This document shows, piece after piece, positions 2,626 through 20,959 of a stretch of DNA of 31,987 nucleotides. Each line of letters opens with the position of its first letter. Position 1 is the stretch's first letter. The notes below the pieces were generated by a model, which saw only the letters and a program-made list of their open reading frames with translations, was not told the DNA's origin and ran no database searches. Both the position numbers and the translations under genes were made by a program. This DNA comes from a virus: the IMG/VR virus record IMGVR_UViG_3300046314_000045, positions 1 to 31,987 of that record. One strand, given 5' to 3'.

Positions 2626-3210
2626 ATGAAACCATTTACCTACCTTATTAAGTGTATCCCAACTAACCAAGTTTACTATGGTGTTCGGTACTCATCAAAC
2701 TGCCACCCAGACCAACTCTGGAACTCATACTTCACATCATCTAAAAGAGTTCATACTCTAATCGAAAAATATGGAGTAGAAAACTTCCAAACTCAGGTAA
2801 GAAGGACATTCTTAACTGCAGAAGAAGCGGTTAGATGGGAGACTAAAGTCTTATCTAAACTTAATGCTGCTAAGTCAGAGGTCTGGCTAAACTGTCAAAA
2901 TGGAGACTACAAGTTCAAAAACAAAGGTGGATATAAACTACCAGAGTCTAAGAAAACTAATTTTAGAAAACCTAAAAGCGAGTCCCATAAACAGTCTATG
3001 AAAGATCGTTACAAAGTAAAACATAAACATTATAACGACGGCAAAAAGTCTTATTATCTTCCAGAAGATTCTCCTCTAATAACAGAGTTAAGCCTAAAAG
3101 AAGGGCAAGTTATAACAAAATGTCCACATTGCAGTAAAGAAGGTAAACTAAACGCAATGCTTAGATGGCACTTCAATAACTGCAAGACATCACCCGAAAA
3201 AGTCCTCTAG
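2626..3210 (+). CDS. GIY-YIG homing endonuclease with C-terminal zinc finger
   Basis: This 194-aa protein is the only convincing plus-strand gene in the window. The GIY-YIG motif appears as YLIK (6-9) and YYGVR (17-21), a conserved HPDQLWNSYFTSSKRV block lies at 27-42, the catalytic Glu is E72 (RWETK), and N89 follows. A NUMOD3-like SESHKQSMK lies at 118-126. A C-terminal zinc-binding pattern CPHC (166-169), H182 and C186 resembles DNA-recognition fingers of free-standing phage homing endonucleases. Such enzymes cut unoccupied alleles and spread by repair. It lies opposite to its neighbours and its last 21 nt overlap the antisense 3' end of the polymerase gene. There is no Shine-Dalgarno before the ATG. 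Confidence 0.9.
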   Translation: MKPFTYLIKCIPTNQVYYGVRYSSNCHPDQLWNSYFTSSKRVHTLIEKYGVENFQTQVRRTFLTAEEAVRWETKVLSKLNAAKSEVWLNCQNGDYKFKNKGGYKLPESKKTNFRKPKSESHKQSMKDRYKVKHKHYNDGKKSYYLPEDSPLITELSLKEGQVITKCPHCSKEGKLNAMLRWHFNNCKTSPEKVL

Positions 3211-13618: not shown

Positions 13619-15097
13619 TTATTGTTGGTCGAATTTAACCACAATATTGTTTTGTTGCAATAACACTTTATGCTCAATGTAAACACCTCGTTGAACATTA
13701 GCCAAGTATTCATTATACTTGTTTAATTGTTCTTGAACAACTTTATCTCCATATGTAGTATGCAGAGTCTTAGTGATATATTGTTTATCATAAAGACCAA
13801 GACCATCCATAACCTGCGCCCAGTTTGGTGCATTAAACATATTATATTCATCCATAAAATATGTCTGGTTTGGTAATGTTTTCTTAAATGTTTCCAAGTG
13901 TTCTTGTACGAAGTCTGTCTTGGTCATCATTGATGGTAGTGCTCTCCAAAATTCAGTATCATCACGTTTTGTTATGTAATGCAACTGAACGAAGTCTACG
14001 ATATTATTAAAACAAGAAACAAATTTACTGTTATACTTTTCTGAAATCTTACGATCTAGCTCCCAAGAACCAAACATCCTAGCCAAACCGATAGACTGAA
14101 GAATAGAATTACCAATACTAGAAGCCTCTAGTGGTTCTACAAAAGAAGCCGACAATCCGATAGAAACGCAATTGTTAACCCAAAATTTATCTACACGTCC
14201 TGCATCAAACTTAATGTCTTTGGCTACTTTAACTTCTTCTGAATATACTGTCTGAACTTCAGCATGGGCTTTAGTAGAATCAATAAAATCATCACAGAAC
14301 ACGTACCCATTACCATATCTCCCTTGTGTAGAAATTCTCCAATTCCAACCAGAAGAAAGAGCACGAGACAGAGTGTGCGGTTTCAAGTCAGAAACATCTT
14401 GAGTTGGGAATGCCAATGCATGATTCATCGGCAAATACTTTTTATAAGAAACCCACTTCACTCCAAGTTTGGAGGAGATGATTCTTTTCATACCACTACT
14501 ATCAATAAAGAAATCAGCTTCGTGTGTAACGCCAGCAGTATCTGTTAGAGATTCGATGTCACCATTCTCTTTAACTGAAACGTCAGAGATAGTTGTATGA
14601 ATAAAATTCACACCTCGCTCAGAACAAATCTCATGGAGAACTTCGTTTAGTTTAAATGTGTTGAAGTGGTATTGGTTTGTGCTATTAATACCACCTTGCA
14701 TGGTCACAAGATTGGTATCCACCAAAACATCTTCAGTTTTAATACCATTGGCAATCAATGATTTGATAAACAAAAGTCTGTGTCCAGTGTCTTGACCATA
14801 TTCAGAATAGAATGGATCGCCCAAAGAGTGGAAATAGCTTTTACCATCTCCATTCCAATTCTCGAACTTAATGCCCTTCTTAAGAGCAGCATCAGTTTTT
14901 CTAACGAGCATGTGGGCATTAATATCACAGTAGTCCATGAACATTTTCCAATGTTCAGTAGACCCCTCACCAACACCAATGATACCGATAGAGTCAGACT
15001 CTATAACTGTAATGTTATACTCTGGGAAAGTTCTTTTCATTACTAAGGCAGAAATCAGACCAGCTGTTCCTCCACCCAATACCAAAATCTTCTTCAT
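13619..15097 (-). CDS. flavin-dependent tryptophan-halogenase-like protein
   Basis: A 492-aa protein of the PrnA/RebH superfamily. The N-terminal FAD-binding motif is LGGGTAGLISALVMK (GxGxxG-type). A GVGEGSTEHW segment follows, and a Lys-rich stretch RKTDAALKKGIKFENW lies where the catalytic lysine is expected. The halogenase signature WxWxIP is present as WNWRIS, with Ser in place of Pro. Members use FADH2, oxygen and halide to chlorinate or brominate indole rings. A phage substrate is unknown and a non-halogenating role remains possible. It lies between the clamp gene and clamp-loader gene, preceded by a late-type AATAAATA box and an AAGGA ribosome site. Confidence 0.9.
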   Translation of the reverse strand: MKKILVLGGGTAGLISALVMKRTFPEYNITVIESDSIGIIGVGEGSTEHWKMFMDYCDINAHMLVRKTDAALKKGIKFENWNGDGKSYFHSLGDPFYSEYGQDTGHRLLFIKSLIANGIKTEDVLVDTNLVTMQGGINSTNQYHFNTFKLNEVLHEICSERGVNFIHTTISDVSVKENGDIESLTDTAGVTHEADFFIDSSGMKRIISSKLGVKWVSYKKYLPMNHALAFPTQDVSDLKPHTLSRALSSGWNWRISTQGRYGNGYVFCDDFIDSTKAHAEVQTVYSEEVKVAKDIKFDAGRVDKFWVNNCVSIGLSASFVEPLEASSIGNSILQSIGLARMFGSWELDRKISEKYNSKFVSCFNNIVDFVQLHYITKRDDTEFWRALPSMMTKTDFVQEHLETFKKTLPNQTYFMDEYNMFNAPNWAQVMDGLGLYDKQYITKTLHTTYGDKVVQEQLNKYNEYLANVQRGVYIEHKVLLQQNNIVVKFDQQ

Positions 15098-16602: not shown

Positions 16603-16863
16603 TTAGCCTCGAGAGAATGCAGAAGCACCAAGGATAGCATTTGCAGCAGCGACCATGCGCTTGCTTGGCTTACCAATACGGTACTTAGTAGTCTCTGTGC
16701 CGTCTGCCAATTTAGCAGCGTTGCTATAAACACAATGACCTTGTGAGCGCAACAGGTGAATCGCACGATGTGGATTCTTCAAACCAAATGAGCCTGCAAT
16801 TTGCTTGGCAGTAAGTTCAGCACCAGTGGACAGGTGATTCAACAGCTTAGCTTGTTTAGACAT
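16603..16863 (-). CDS. winged-helix-like DNA-binding protein, 86 aa
   Basis: An 86-aa protein beginning MSKQAKLLNHLSTGAELTAK. A helix-turn-helix is readable: LTAKQIAGSFGLKNPHRAIH, followed by LLRSQGHCVYSN and a wing KLADGTETTKYRIG. The basic C-terminus (KPSKRMVAAANAI) may add contacts. It could be a transcriptional regulator or DNA-targeting partner of the adjacent CobS-like system. ATG 16863 has GGAG at 7 nt. The longer frame from a TTG at 16902 begins inside the terminator region and is rejected. Confidence 0.75.
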   Translation of the reverse strand: MSKQAKLLNHLSTGAELTAKQIAGSFGLKNPHRAIHLLRSQGHCVYSNAAKLADGTETTKYRIGKPSKRMVAAANAILGASAFSRG

Positions 16864-16890
16864 ATAATAACTCCATAATAAACCATCAAC

Positions 16891-16923
16891 GAAAAATGCC
16901 AACAGAGGGATGGCGTCCTCTGT
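16891..16923 (-). terminator. intrinsic terminator after the RGLY-motif protein gene
   Basis: A 7-bp stem ACAGAGG/CCTCTGT with an 8-nt loop is followed on the minus strand by TGGC and a TTTTT run. An alternative short stem GCCA/TGGC directly precedes the T-run. It lies 26 nt after the stop of the 163-aa gene. Confidence 0.65.
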
Positions 16924-16948
16924 CAGCAGAAAAGTAACCTATTTGTAA

Positions 16949-17440
16949 TTAGACTTCGATACCATTCTCACGCAGAATAGCGTTAAAATCTTCAGTTTCG
17001 TCATCGTAAGTCATAGACTCATCGATGATATTCTGCAGACGATTCAGGTCAGACTTAGTCTCTTTCTCTACAGCCTTTGCAGCTGGAGTGGACTTGACCT
17101 TAACAGTCTTAGCCTTAGCAAGTTTCGCAACTTTAGCCTTAGCCTTAGTCACAGCAGGTGTGGCTTTGTCAGCAACTTCCTTGTTGAAGGCAGATACCTC
17201 AGCAACAGTTGGGACAGGCAGTTGGTACAAACCACGCTCAACTTTGTTTGCAGCGAACAACCAGTTTGGATAACCGATCTTCTCACCTTTAGAGCCAGTG
17301 CGTTGTTCACGCAGGACATAATAGATGGAGGCGCATTCTTTCAAAGTGATTTCGGGAGACTTCTTGTACTGGGGATTAGCTTCCAGAACAGCCATAACGA
17401 AACGTTTCTGAGCAAGGGACAAAGCAGCGAATTTCAACAT
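16949..17440 (-). CDS. protein with N-terminal RGLY module and Lys/Ala-rich linker, 163 aa
   Basis: The N-terminal 75 residues form a helical, possibly winged-helix module ending GYPNWLFAANKVERGLYQLP (56-75). A similar module (FPLWLMKTKAGRGLY) starts the CobS-like ATPase encoded immediately upstream. A Lys/Ala/Val-rich linker (KAKAKVAKLAKAKTVKVK, about 98-117) follows, which is histone-H1-like in composition. The acidic C-terminal tail contains DLNRLQNIIDESMTYDDETE. I infer DNA binding from the composition but assign no specific role. ATG 17440 has AAGGAAA upstream. The gene has its own promoter within the preceding hairpin. Confidence 0.75.
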   Translation of the reverse strand: MLKFAALSLAQKRFVMAVLEANPQYKKSPEITLKECASIYYVLREQRTGSKGEKIGYPNWLFAANKVERGLYQLPVPTVAEVSAFNKEVADKATPAVTKAKAKVAKLAKAKTVKVKSTPAAKAVEKETKSDLNRLQNIIDESMTYDDETEDFNAILRENGIEV

Positions 17441-17481
17441 AATATATTTCCTTTTACAAAGATTTTTCAAGATAAGACATT

Positions 17482-17510
17482 AGTATACTACAAAGGGGAT
17501 TACAAGTCAA
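17482..17510 (-). promoter_or_regulatory. promoter whose -35 lies in a terminator loop
   Basis: TTGACT (17510-17505), a 17-nt spacer and TATACT (17487-17482). The -35 box occupies the loop and first stem base of the 12-bp hairpin after the CobS-like gene, and the spacer contains the hairpin's downstream arm. The upstream bases AGTTGTTG repeat those of the 9.15-kb promoter. Confidence 0.7.
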
Positions 17511-17529
17511 CAACTATTTGTAATCCCCT
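17494..17529 (-). terminator. 12-bp hairpin terminator after the CobS-like gene
   Basis: Arms 17494-17505 and 17518-17529 (AGGGGATTACAA and TTGTAATCCCCT) pair perfectly with a 12-nt loop, starting 6 nt after the gene's stop. On the minus strand it is followed by TTGTAG, a short T-run. It is superimposed on a promoter. Confidence 0.7.
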
Positions 17530-17534
17530 ACAGA

Positions 17535-18680
17535 TTAGAAGGGAATCTCGTCCGTTGGGTTTGTAGCAGTAGGGAGGACAGGCTCGACAACCTCTGGGGC
17601 AGGGCTTGCAACCTTGTCGTAGAGGTCGATAAAGGCTGTTTTAGTTGCAGAGTCGAAACGATTGCAACACAGTTCTACAGCCTTCTCACGCTTCTTAAAG
17701 ATAGCGTAAGCACGTACAATGTGGATCATACGACGAGTCGTAATGGTTTCATCCACACCACCATCGGCAAAGGTACGACGGATAGCGTCAGCCCACTTTA
17801 CCAATGTCTCTGCGAATTCCTGGTCTTCACAACCATAGGAAACCATCAGATTCTCGATAATCTTCTGCTCGATTTTGGCAGAAGGATAATCCTGTTCGAA
17901 AGTTACAGCGAAACGCTCCAAGAATGCTTCGTTCAGAACGTTGGTACCGATGTATCGACCATCGTCTGAGCCTTTACCCTTAGTGTTGGCAGTGGCAAAG
18001 ATGTTGAAACCTTCTGCTGGAACGATCATCTCATTCTTCAACTTGAAGTAATATGGCTTACCCTCAAGAATTGGCTGTAAGCACAACAGAGTGTTGGCAG
18101 AGCCAGCATCAATTTCGTCAAGTAACAGAGTCGTACCATTGCGCATGGCAATGAGCACTGGACCTTCTACGATGGACACGTTGCCATCTTCCAGAGTCTT
18201 GGTACCGATGAGTTGTTCTTCATCGGTCATCATGTTCAAGTTAACACGAATTAGTGGACGCTTGTGCTTGGCACAAATTTGTTCAATCATCGTAGACTTA
18301 CCATTACCAGTTGGACCACTGATGTAAGCTGGATAGAAGATTTTGGACTTGATGATGTTTTCCAAGTCAGTGTAGTTGCCGAATGGCACAAAGTTTGCAT
18401 CCTTCTTTGGGATGAGCGAGTCTGTATTTGTCAAGTCCACTTGGAATGATTCTTTCACGTCTTCAGTTTGCACTGCGACTGCAGCATTACCATCGATGGC
18501 ATACAAGCCACGACCAGCCTTAGTCTTCATAAGCCAGAGAGGAAACTTCTCTGTTTTGAGTTTAGCCATAACTTCCATTAGCTGGGGACGACTCACAACA
18601 CCCTTCGTTTGCACGTCAGGATACATTGCATGCATCTTAGCCTCAAAAGTCTCACGAAACGCCACATCGGTCTTTGCCAT
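17535..18680 (-). CDS. CobS/MoxR-like AAA+ ATPase
   Basis: A 381-aa protein. Residues 1-65 carry the RGLY-type module (FPLWLMKTKAGRGLY, 46-60). The AAA_5/MoxR ATPase core follows with Walker A GPTGNGKS (122-129), Walker B LLLDEID (185-191), a sensor-1 ATANT, and arginine-finger FLERFAV. CobS-type ATPases work with a VWA-domain CobT partner in the aerobic cobalt chelatase, and more widely MoxR-VWA pairs remodel proteins or insert metals. The partner gene lies just upstream. T4-like cyanophages are known to carry cobS. Start ATG 18680 has GGAG six nt upstream. An ATG at 18692 is the alternative. Confidence 0.9.
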   Translation of the reverse strand: MAKTDVAFRETFEAKMHAMYPDVQTKGVVSRPQLMEVMAKLKTEKFPLWLMKTKAGRGLYAIDGNAAVAVQTEDVKESFQVDLTNTDSLIPKKDANFVPFGNYTDLENIIKSKIFYPAYISGPTGNGKSTMIEQICAKHKRPLIRVNLNMMTDEEQLIGTKTLEDGNVSIVEGPVLIAMRNGTTLLLDEIDAGSANTLLCLQPILEGKPYYFKLKNEMIVPAEGFNIFATANTKGKGSDDGRYIGTNVLNEAFLERFAVTFEQDYPSAKIEQKIIENLMVSYGCEDQEFAETLVKWADAIRRTFADGGVDETITTRRMIHIVRAYAIFKKREKAVELCCNRFDSATKTAFIDLYDKVASPAPEVVEPVLPTATNPTDEIPF

Positions 18681-18719
18681 CACATTCTCCATAATAAACC
18701 TAACCACTCAATATAATGT

Positions 18720-18748
18720 ATTATTCCATAAACGGGAATAAATGTCAA
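18720..18748 (-). promoter_or_regulatory. promoter of the CobS-like gene
   Basis: A perfect TTGACA (18748-18743), a 17-nt spacer and AATAAT (18725-18720). It lies directly after the VWA-gene terminator and would start RNA about 30 nt before the ATG. Confidence 0.75.
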
Positions 18749-18760
18749 CACTTTTCTTGG

Positions 18761-18785
18761 AAAACCCTACACTTTGTAGGGGTTT
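18761..18785 (-). terminator. intrinsic terminator after the VWA gene
   Basis: CCCTACA/TGTAGGG (18765-18771 and 18775-18781) with a 3-nt loop, flanked by A and T runs. TTTT follows on the minus strand. It lies about 25 nt after the stop. Confidence 0.75.
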
Positions 18786-18809
18786 ATTTTTCCCTGTAAA
18801 ATCAACAAC

Positions 18810-20303
18810 TTACGCAACGTAGCCGATGAATCGGTTCAGGAGAACCCGACTAGTCTTCTTAACGTTCAAGAATTTGCTGAAGTTTCTTGCAATGGCTTTA
18901 GCGTTTGCATCACCATTGACTGTTAACTCACCCTCTTCAATCTTGGTAGATTCTTGGGGGATGATAAAAAGTTCATCACGACCAGTGTTCTTTACCGAAG
19001 CAAAGCCATCAGTCTTGAATTCCTTGCGCCATGTATCAACCAATAAGTCTTTACTGCCAGTAAATTCTGGCAGGTTGGAATTGATAACCCATTCCAAATC
19101 ACGACGAGCATTACGTGTAACGTAGAAACCAAGCACAACGATGTCATGGCGATCTTTGATCATACGCAACAGAACCTCTGTCTGTTTGTTAGATGTTCGA
19201 TTGATCTCATAAGTCTTTTGAGTACGATCGTCACGGATGTAATGTTTCTGCTTGACACGTTTGTATGTTGAACCAACATACTCATTACGAACTTCGTGCA
19301 GATTGCCCATCTTATGAGATTGCATTGCACCACCCTCGCCATCGGTAAGAGTAATCAATGTCATCTTTTCGATGTTGTTGTTCTTGATGTAATCACCAAG
19401 ATTGTGATAGATCCAACCAAGTGCTTCATTCAATGGAGTGCCACCCATGGAGTAGCCTTTGTTCCAGAAGAACTTATGATCTAACACACGTTTACACATC
19501 GTATTAAACTCAGAGTTAGTCATACGGTTAGAGAAAATCTCCAACAAGTGCATAGTGGTAGTAGCATTCGACAGATATGAATCATCAGAATTTGCACGAG
19601 CACTATGAATTTCACGTTGTTTGTCGTAGTAGCGATGATCATAGTCACGCTCATTGTATTGAGAGGTGAACGCTAATACACGATATGGAATCTGTGTGCG
19701 GTTACAGAACATTGCCAAGTTGATAACTTGCTTCAATGTGTCTTCCATAACACCACTCATAGAACCTGACCAGTCCAACAAGAAAACCATACCATGGTTC
19801 TTACCTTGTGGCAGAACAGTCACACGCTTGAACAGATCGTCTTGCAGTTTGTATGCGTAGATTTTCTTCATATCCAAAGAACCAGACTTGGAGATCTGAG
19901 CACGTTTGTACATCTGAGCAGACTTACGCATCTCAAATTCTTTGACCAAGTAATTCACAGCACGTTGAGAATCAGCTTTGAACTTCTCGAAACCAGCGTC
20001 GATTTTCTTTTGTTGTTCGATATAGTCTGGACGTTTTTCCAAAGTCTCTTTATCGTACCATGCAAGACCAGTCTTTTCGCTAGTCTCTTTGAGAATACGT
20101 TTGAACGGTATGACGGGATCGTTGACGTAAGCATCATCAATCTTGTGATAGAAGTATTGGGTATCTGTATCAGCCAAGTCTTGCAACTTATCTTGGAAAG
20201 AACGTTCTGTCTTAGACTCCAAGTCTTCGTCAGTCACATCTTTCTGTTTAGGTGCAGTACCCTTCTTCTGCTCTTTGCCAGCACCACGATCTTCATCTTC
20301 CAT
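18810..20303 (-). CDS. VWA-domain protein, CobT-like C-terminal part
   Basis: A 497-aa protein whose VWA domain has a complete MIDAS metal site: DWSGSMS (177-183), a Thr in GGTPL (287-291), and LTDGEGG (319-325). The N-terminal third is acidic then helical. CobT of the cobalt chelatase ends in the same kind of VWA domain and is preceded by an acidic linker and a helical domain. This frame is open back to 20330 with the acidic phrase DWDPDSDEDMEDED. No Shine-Dalgarno precedes ATG 20303, so it probably represents the 3' part of a gene split from the preceding frame by a -1 shift. Confidence 0.88.
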   Translation of the reverse strand: MEDEDRGAGKEQKKGTAPKQKDVTDEDLESKTERSFQDKLQDLADTDTQYFYHKIDDAYVNDPVIPFKRILKETSEKTGLAWYDKETLEKRPDYIEQQKKIDAGFEKFKADSQRAVNYLVKEFEMRKSAQMYKRAQISKSGSLDMKKIYAYKLQDDLFKRVTVLPQGKNHGMVFLLDWSGSMSGVMEDTLKQVINLAMFCNRTQIPYRVLAFTSQYNERDYDHRYYDKQREIHSARANSDDSYLSNATTTMHLLEIFSNRMTNSEFNTMCKRVLDHKFFWNKGYSMGGTPLNEALGWIYHNLGDYIKNNNIEKMTLITLTDGEGGAMQSHKMGNLHEVRNEYVGSTYKRVKQKHYIRDDRTQKTYEINRTSNKQTEVLLRMIKDRHDIVVLGFYVTRNARRDLEWVINSNLPEFTGSKDLLVDTWRKEFKTDGFASVKNTGRDELFIIPQESTKIEEGELTVNGDANAKAIARNFSKFLNVKKTSRVLLNRFIGYVA

Positions 20304-20959
20304 ATCTTCATCAGAATCTGGATCCCAGTCTCATCAGTGTCCGTGGTTTCGTCGTCGGCATCACCTTCGTCGGCACGTTCTTTGGCAGCTTGCTGGGCTT
20401 CTTCTTCAGCTTTAGCCTTTGAGTATGCATAGATGTCTTTGGCCAACTCGATGAGTTCATCGATGGTCTCAGTCTTCTCAGCACGATTCACGAATGGCTT
20501 CTCATCTGGATCGAATGTGACACCGCACTGGAAACCAGCTTTAAAGTACAAGTTGATTTTGTCGATGAGCAACAATTGGTCAAAGTCTTGGACTTGTTTC
20601 ACGCCAAAGAAGTCACGTTCATTAAGTTGTTTGTAGCCTTCGTTCATGCGCTTACGCAGACCTGGATACTTACGCTTGATCATCTTCTCAATACGCACAT
20701 CTTCCAGTACGTTGAGATAAGACATCATGCTTTTATTTTCTTGGATAGGTTTTAGGTACTCTTCGCCTGTGTACAAGGCGTGACCCACTTCGTGACCAAT
20801 GAGCATATCCTCAATCTCTGGAGTCATATCTTTCCAGACTGGGATCGTCAGCACACGATTCTTAATATCGAACGATGCAGTACGGGCACGGGCACGAACC
20901 ACGTTCAGGTTTTCTGTAGCCAGCAGTCGTGCTGACAAGTCACTTGCTTGAATTTCCAT
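20234..20959 (-). CDS. HExxH zinc-metalloprotease-like protein, CobT-like N-terminal part
   Basis: A 241-aa frame with the zinc motif HEVGH (56-60), preceded by IEDMLIG, and the downstream helix YLNVLEDVRIEKMIKRKYPG (81-100) that supplies a third ligand in CobT/VWA-associated proteins. From about residue 180 it becomes an acidic linker (AKERADEGDADDETTDTDE). The final 30 residues after DETG change abruptly to IQILMKIWKMKIVV, a basic, hydrophobic run unlike the linker, while the VWA frame continues the acidic linker. The natural product is therefore probably the fused protein. The gene follows the 55-aa gene by two bases. Confidence 0.82.
   Translation of the reverse strand: MEIQASDLSARLLATENLNVVRARARTASFDIKNRVLTIPVWKDMTPEIEDMLIGHEVGHALYTGEEYLKPIQENKSMMSYLNVLEDVRIEKMIKRKYPGLRKRMNEGYKQLNERDFFGVKQVQDFDQLLLIDKINLYFKAGFQCGVTFDPDEKPFVNRAEKTETIDELIELAKDIYAYSKAKAEEEAQQAAKERADEGDADDETTDTDETGIQILMKIWKMKIVVLAKSRRRVLHLNRKM
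20304..20333 (-). other. probable frameshift junction joining protease-like and VWA frames
   Basis: The VWA frame has no stop until TGA at 20333-20331. The protease-like frame carries the acidic linker up to this point. One extra G in the minus-strand GGG run (20326-20324) would join them as ...TDETGDPDSDED. This may be a genuine mutation, an assembly error or a programmed -1 shift. No classical slippery heptamer is seen. Confidence 0.65.

Follow-up and report, generated by a model that had tools for sequence, protein, structure and literature searches.

Can one short stretch of phage DNA end one transcript and begin the next? This question is raised by a site immediately 3' of a CobS-like gene, where a hairpin and a sigma70-type promoter sequence occupy the same bases. 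The site lies in a virus record of environmental origin, 31,987 bases long, analyzed over its whole length and called the window here. The phage is T4-like; its genes include a T4-type replication module consisting of a clamp loader, SbcC/D-like nuclease subunits, a helicase, and DNA polymerase B.

All genes flanking the site are on the minus strand. The upstream one, an ORF at 17535 to 18707 (minus strand), encodes a CobS-like AAA ATPase that matched PHROG 249 (E 2.6e-106) and Pfam AAA_5; among the matches listed, its best named relatives were Pelagibacter phage HTVC008M and cyanophages, with 47.8–55% identity. The downstream gene, an ORF at 16949 to 17440 (minus strand), encodes a protein of 163 aa from an ATG at 17440, for which searches of Pfam, PHROGs, and the phage collection returned no match. 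A motif in this protein looked similar to one in CobS by eye, but the best BLASTP E value was 1.4, and the protein was rejected as a CobS relative. Upstream of cobS, an ordinary hairpin (18781–18765) is followed by a separate promoter (18748–18720), all on the minus strand, and a terminator-like hairpin with 12 pairs, six of them G-C, and a TTTTT tail is located 3' of the 163-aa gene (16897 to 16928, minus strand). Both genes therefore look like single-gene units, and the hairpin/promoter site looks like the boundary shared by the two.

Several other features of this region were observed. The 3' arm of the hairpin located 3' of the 163-aa gene contains a -35-like TTGGCA, 16 nt from a TATTAT (window 16928–16875); the latter is close to the next start codon, and this promoter reading is probably spurious. 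A tryptophan halogenase-like gene (13619–15097, minus strand; Pfam E 5.1e-99, PHROG 2928) sits within the phage replication region. An ORF on the opposite strand (2626–3210, plus strand) perhaps encodes a homing endonuclease; its match to a SegE GIY-YIG endonuclease domain, with an E value of 2.4e-4, falls short of the Pfam cut-off. Two adjacent, overlapping ORFs (18810–20959, minus strand) match opposite ends of PHROG 459 (peptidase); in the relative L104, a single 729-aa ORF precedes CobS, so the PHROG 459 gene of the window may be split or frameshifted.

Past the end of cobS (17535), the minus strand reads in order the 5' arm of the hairpin, AGGGGATTACAA (17529–17518), a 12-nt loop (17517–17506), the 3' arm, TTGTAATCCCCT (17505–17494), TTGTAG, and TATACT. 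The perfect 12-bp stem that the original prediction placed after the CobS-like gene is present on this strand and at these coordinates: the arms are complementary at 12 of 12 positions and form five G-C pairs, four of them consecutive beside the closing A-U pair. Superimposed on the stem is a candidate promoter, TTGACT-17-TATACT, which matches 10 of 12 positions of the sigma70-type consensus and whose 17-nt spacer falls within the 16–18 nt range of sigma70-type hexamers. The loop and stem edge were said to hold the -35 box and the downstream arm to form part of the spacer, and both descriptions are accurate. Five bases of TTGACT (17510–17505) are located in the loop and the sixth opens the downstream arm, which in turn supplies 11 of the 17 spacer bases. 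The short U-rich tail 3' of the stem (17493–17479) overlaps the region of the -10 box, TATACT (17487–17482), and transcription would start near 17475, approximately 7 nt past the -10.

The 12-bp hairpin at this promoter is not a product of chance. No other perfect 12-bp repeat with a loop of 3–20 nt exists in the whole window, and when the window was shuffled with its dinucleotides preserved, 4 of 100 shuffles had any repeat of this kind. Stems of at least 11 bp without G-U pairs that span a -35 were seen at one of 3170 promoter-like sites in 300 shuffles, and stems of 12 bp at none of the 3170; in the real window, one of 19 promoter-like sites has a stem of at least 11 bp across its -35. The fold of the minus-strand RNA at the hairpin gave -17.6 kcal/mol (z -2.4); the stem is stable and carries G-C pairs at its base, as in an intrinsic terminator. 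A simple terminator scan omitted the hairpin because its loop limit was 8 nt and the loop here has 12. An Rfam search of positions 16800–18900 returned no match at E 1 or better. The exact 16-mer TTGACTTGTAATCCCC occurs elsewhere in L082, L084, L087, and L088, and these copies were dismissed as chance since their flanks and folds include no such hairpin.

To judge the tail, we used a T-tail measure with weights of the d'Aubenton-Carafa type. The score of TTTGTAGTATAC, counted from the last C-G pair, was 3.05, with a U-run of only 3 (TTTGTAG); six other hairpins of the window scored 1.53–4.59, and the 90th percentile of the background was 1.80. Judged from stem and tail, termination at the 12-bp hairpin is probable. 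Relatives that lack the hairpin often have a TTG ahead of the -10 region as well, so the U-run may not have evolved as a tail.

Relatives share the two elements to different extents. Three IMG/VR scans with CobS proteins were run, with 80 loci kept of 263, 275, and 338 confirmed; together with pattern matches and fetched pieces, they yielded 237 sequences (window included) with gene and stop, many of them the same contigs fetched again. A recognizable start of the downstream gene was present in 233 of the 237, giving 69 distinct intergenic sequences, while L035, L170, L235, and L238 were left out because this start was not recognizable. A pattern search located the promoter in 68 of the 69 sequences, with a spacer of 17 nt in every one, and the remaining sequence (L184) has TTGCCT-17-TAGAAT by eye; L072 and L080 have TTGCTT as the -35. 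What stays constant at this boundary is thus the promoter. By the sequences compared, the hairpin is optional, as many lineages carry an ordinary terminator upstream of the promoter and others carry none. Since relatives without any hairpin keep the promoter, it does not need the hairpin; nor is termination at the boundary essential, since such lineages exist. The -10 was TATAAT in 59 of the 68 promoters, TATACT in 8, and TAAACT in one, and these counts bear on a palindrome noted at the -10 box, for which a role is not supported. The -10 of the window does lie inside TAGTATACTA (17490–17481), but the family's usual TATAAT is not palindromic there, and TAGTATACTA is a one-letter variant of GTAGTATAATA, which is found across the family. 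We consider the palindrome incidental and rejected it as a feature of its own.

The overlapping hairpin was found in the window and in nine related viral contigs, representing six distinct intergenic sequences, and on the CobS tree its carriers group as a single clade (99% SH-aLRT, one change). The CobS of L002 is identical to that of the window, while the other eight contigs differ at 15–39% of CobS fourfold sites. Within the 59-nt hairpin/promoter block, 4 of 59 columns are variable among eight aligned sequences, L002 and L005 having been excluded because they duplicate the block. Each of the four distinct rows keeps all 12 pairs, the pair changes being an A-U to G-C double change in L003 and one G-U in L010, and sliding the arms lowers the pairing to 40–58%. 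In a column-shuffle control of the covariation, which is weak because the changes are few, 131 of 500 shuffles reached the observed value.

How the overlap arose is suggested by the arrangements in other lineages. Many have a hairpin, AATCCC(...)GGGTTATT, upstream of the promoter, and in further lineages the promoter stands almost directly after the stop codon, with no hairpin of the AATCCC type. When the sequences were aligned, the upstream arm of the window hairpin, GTAGGG-GATTACAA, fell on the downstream arm, GTAGGGTTATTACA, of the separate terminators of relatives. Lineages without the hairpin have a shorter motif in the spacer, for example, TGTAATC in L020 and TGCAATC in L075. The simplest history would be that the original 5' arm was lost and the 3' arm paired anew with the promoter spacer at the place of this short motif.

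The reading we favor, and consider reasonably probable, is that a terminator of partial efficiency and a sigma70-type promoter overlap at the compressed boundary of two single-gene units. The promoter TTGACT-17-TATACT would start the 163-aa gene near 17475, while the cobS RNA would fold into the 12-bp hairpin and, helped by the short U-rich tail, transcription of cobS would stop in part within about 10 bases 3' of the stem, ahead of the next start site. In relatives, the terminator lies upstream and the promoter is separate from it; in the window, the original 5' arm of the terminator would be gone and its 3' arm would pair with the promoter spacer, so that one stretch of DNA could do both jobs. 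The sequences themselves show the hairpin, the promoter sequence, the conservation of both, and the alignment of the arm with the terminators of relatives, whereas we infer that the promoter is active, that transcripts end here, and in what order the evolutionary steps occurred. The proposal that the same DNA ends one transcript and begins the next thus stands as far as the DNA is shared, both elements are conserved, and the tail is as U-rich as at other terminator-like hairpins of this phage, which makes termination and initiation here plausible.

A further suggestion was that interference between promoter and terminator could create a switch. In such a switch, a polymerase bound at the promoter would block an elongating one before the hairpin is complete, a terminating one would occlude the promoter, and the ratio of the two genes would be set in this way. 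The geometry fits, as the stop point lies between the -35 and the start site, and pairing across the -35 is seen in seven other distinct sequences. In L019, L021, L023, L040, L064, L069, and L070, the GGGG 3' arm of the terminator can pair either upstream or with a TAATCCC or similar run in the spacer, and the spacer pairing would put the -35 in the loop (p 0.002–0.02 relative to shuffled spacers; weaker than in the window). Over all 68 sequences, arm–spacer pairing reached p 0.05 in 17, with approximately 3 expected, and the window group and the seven sequences together correspond to four changes on the CobS tree. This recurrence is a lead only, since we assigned the groups with the sequences already in view and relatedness makes the sequences non-independent. 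The alternative pairing in the seven sequences would form only past their upstream terminator, and against a switch the T-tail scores in these lineages were poor where scored (1.48 in L019 and 0.86 in L069). Repeated re-pairing of a terminator arm with the spacer within this phage family is improbable as a reading; it is an arrangement that, if selected, would couple transcript end and start by mutual exclusion at one site. A different arrangement was observed in L011, L071, L104, L105, and L107, where a long compound hairpin, AAAGTAATAC...GTGTTGACTTT, encloses an inner terminator-like stem and contains the -35 in its outer 3' arm. One pair of this compound hairpin shows a U-A to C-G double change in two of the five sequences, and a second position also varies and is unpaired in three of the five.

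Both the favored reading and the switch can be judged from the other boundaries in these genomes. Hairpins just upstream of a promoter, whose frequency agrees with the favored reading, were counted by rule and are not all good terminators; they numbered 6 in the window and 12 in G001 versus 0.4 and 2.6 in shuffles, and less clearly 7 in G002 versus 3.4 and 5 in G004 versus 1.6; one of the six in the window is the 12-bp hairpin, matched in this count with another promoter-like site at 17470. The occurrence of a -35 in a loop was at chance level in three related genomes (1 versus 1.0, 2.0, and 0.9), and the single case in G001 is the cobS boundary locus itself. Other cases (window 21086, G002 53200, and G004 76942) resemble those of shuffles in their long loops and G-U pairs and were rejected, as was the overlap as a general device in the three genomes. 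With the promoter kept in relatives that have separate terminators or none, and the overlap not enriched elsewhere in three genomes, the suggested switch has no support beyond its geometry, and we regard it as unlikely.

The near-invariant arms could alternatively form an operator, with one half-site per arm for a DNA-binding protein dimer; the dimer would cover the -35 and control the promoter, the RNA fold being a by-product. The perfect dyad is centered beside the -35, in agreement with this possibility, but the arm has no other copy with 0 mismatches in the window or G001, copies with 1–2 mismatches do not make a second such dyad at a promoter, and in relatives the sequences around the retained promoter are quite different. 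Given that no second exact copy of the arm occurs in the window or G001, where the same dyad was not found at other promoters, an operator shared with other promoters is unlikely; one confined to this single site may exist, but we consider operator function here improbable overall. The hairpin could also guard the 3' end of the cobS transcript from decay, or be cut after read-through, with little termination. A stem of -17.6 kcal/mol with a short U-run is compatible with such a role, but the tail score above the 90th percentile of the background speaks against it, and the role appears quite unlikely. Likewise distinctly improbable is a functionless remnant of a terminator, paired with the spacer only by coincidence: the restriction of the hairpin to one clade and the existence of lineages without it agree with neutrality, but the pairing exceeds chance, the arms are nearly invariant, and one pair has changed on both sides.

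Horwitz and Loeb in 1988 reportedly described a promoter regulated by cruciform extrusion, with an inverted repeat within an E. coli promoter; like the phage site it contains an inverted repeat, but it is reportedly engineered, acts at the DNA level, and has no terminator. That supercoiling extrudes the repeat here, takes the -35 out of the duplex, and tunes the promoter has this precedent in print but is extremely improbable, as the loop has 12 nt and an E. coli survey of cruciform-forming repeats considered spacers of at most 8 (PMC6060812). An attenuator acting through leader pairing was rejected because the pairing lies past the stop point and the leader side changes in L010; no conserved competing RNA pairing before a decision point was found at the cobS boundary.

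The terminator overlapping a promoter that we favor has partial counterparts. At tandem boundaries of the same phages (window 18781–18720; G001 promoters at 47831, 56085, 60272, and 81045), a hairpin is likewise followed on the same strand by a sigma70-like promoter; the -35 starts 12–16 nt after the stem there, whereas at the cobS boundary it lies in the loop. In Kayvirus vB_SauM-515A1, also a large phage, RNA-seq mapping placed the early promoter p98 immediately after the terminator t97, at which late transcription hardly stops; the two elements are described as adjacent and not as overlapping (PMC7698491). In the meningococcal cbbA-fHbp region, expression of the downstream gene depends jointly on a promoter and on how strong the terminator is, both within a single short intergenic region; unlike the phage site, this system is bacterial and FNR-controlled, and its terminator and promoter are listed as separate elements (PMC8026042). 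Promoters directly after terminators in phages and joint control by terminator and promoter in bacteria are thus already known. For a terminator-like hairpin whose loop holds a -35 box, we found no description in the open-access literature, within a search of limited scope that leaves absence unproven.

The site suggests how, in a compact phage genome, the signal that stops one unit can merge with the signal that starts the following unit. If the overlap is compression only, then it is ordinary. One orthologous boundary nevertheless offers a natural series, comprising a separate terminator, an overlapping hairpin, and no hairpin, that is suited to measuring the interference between the end of one transcript and the start of the next.
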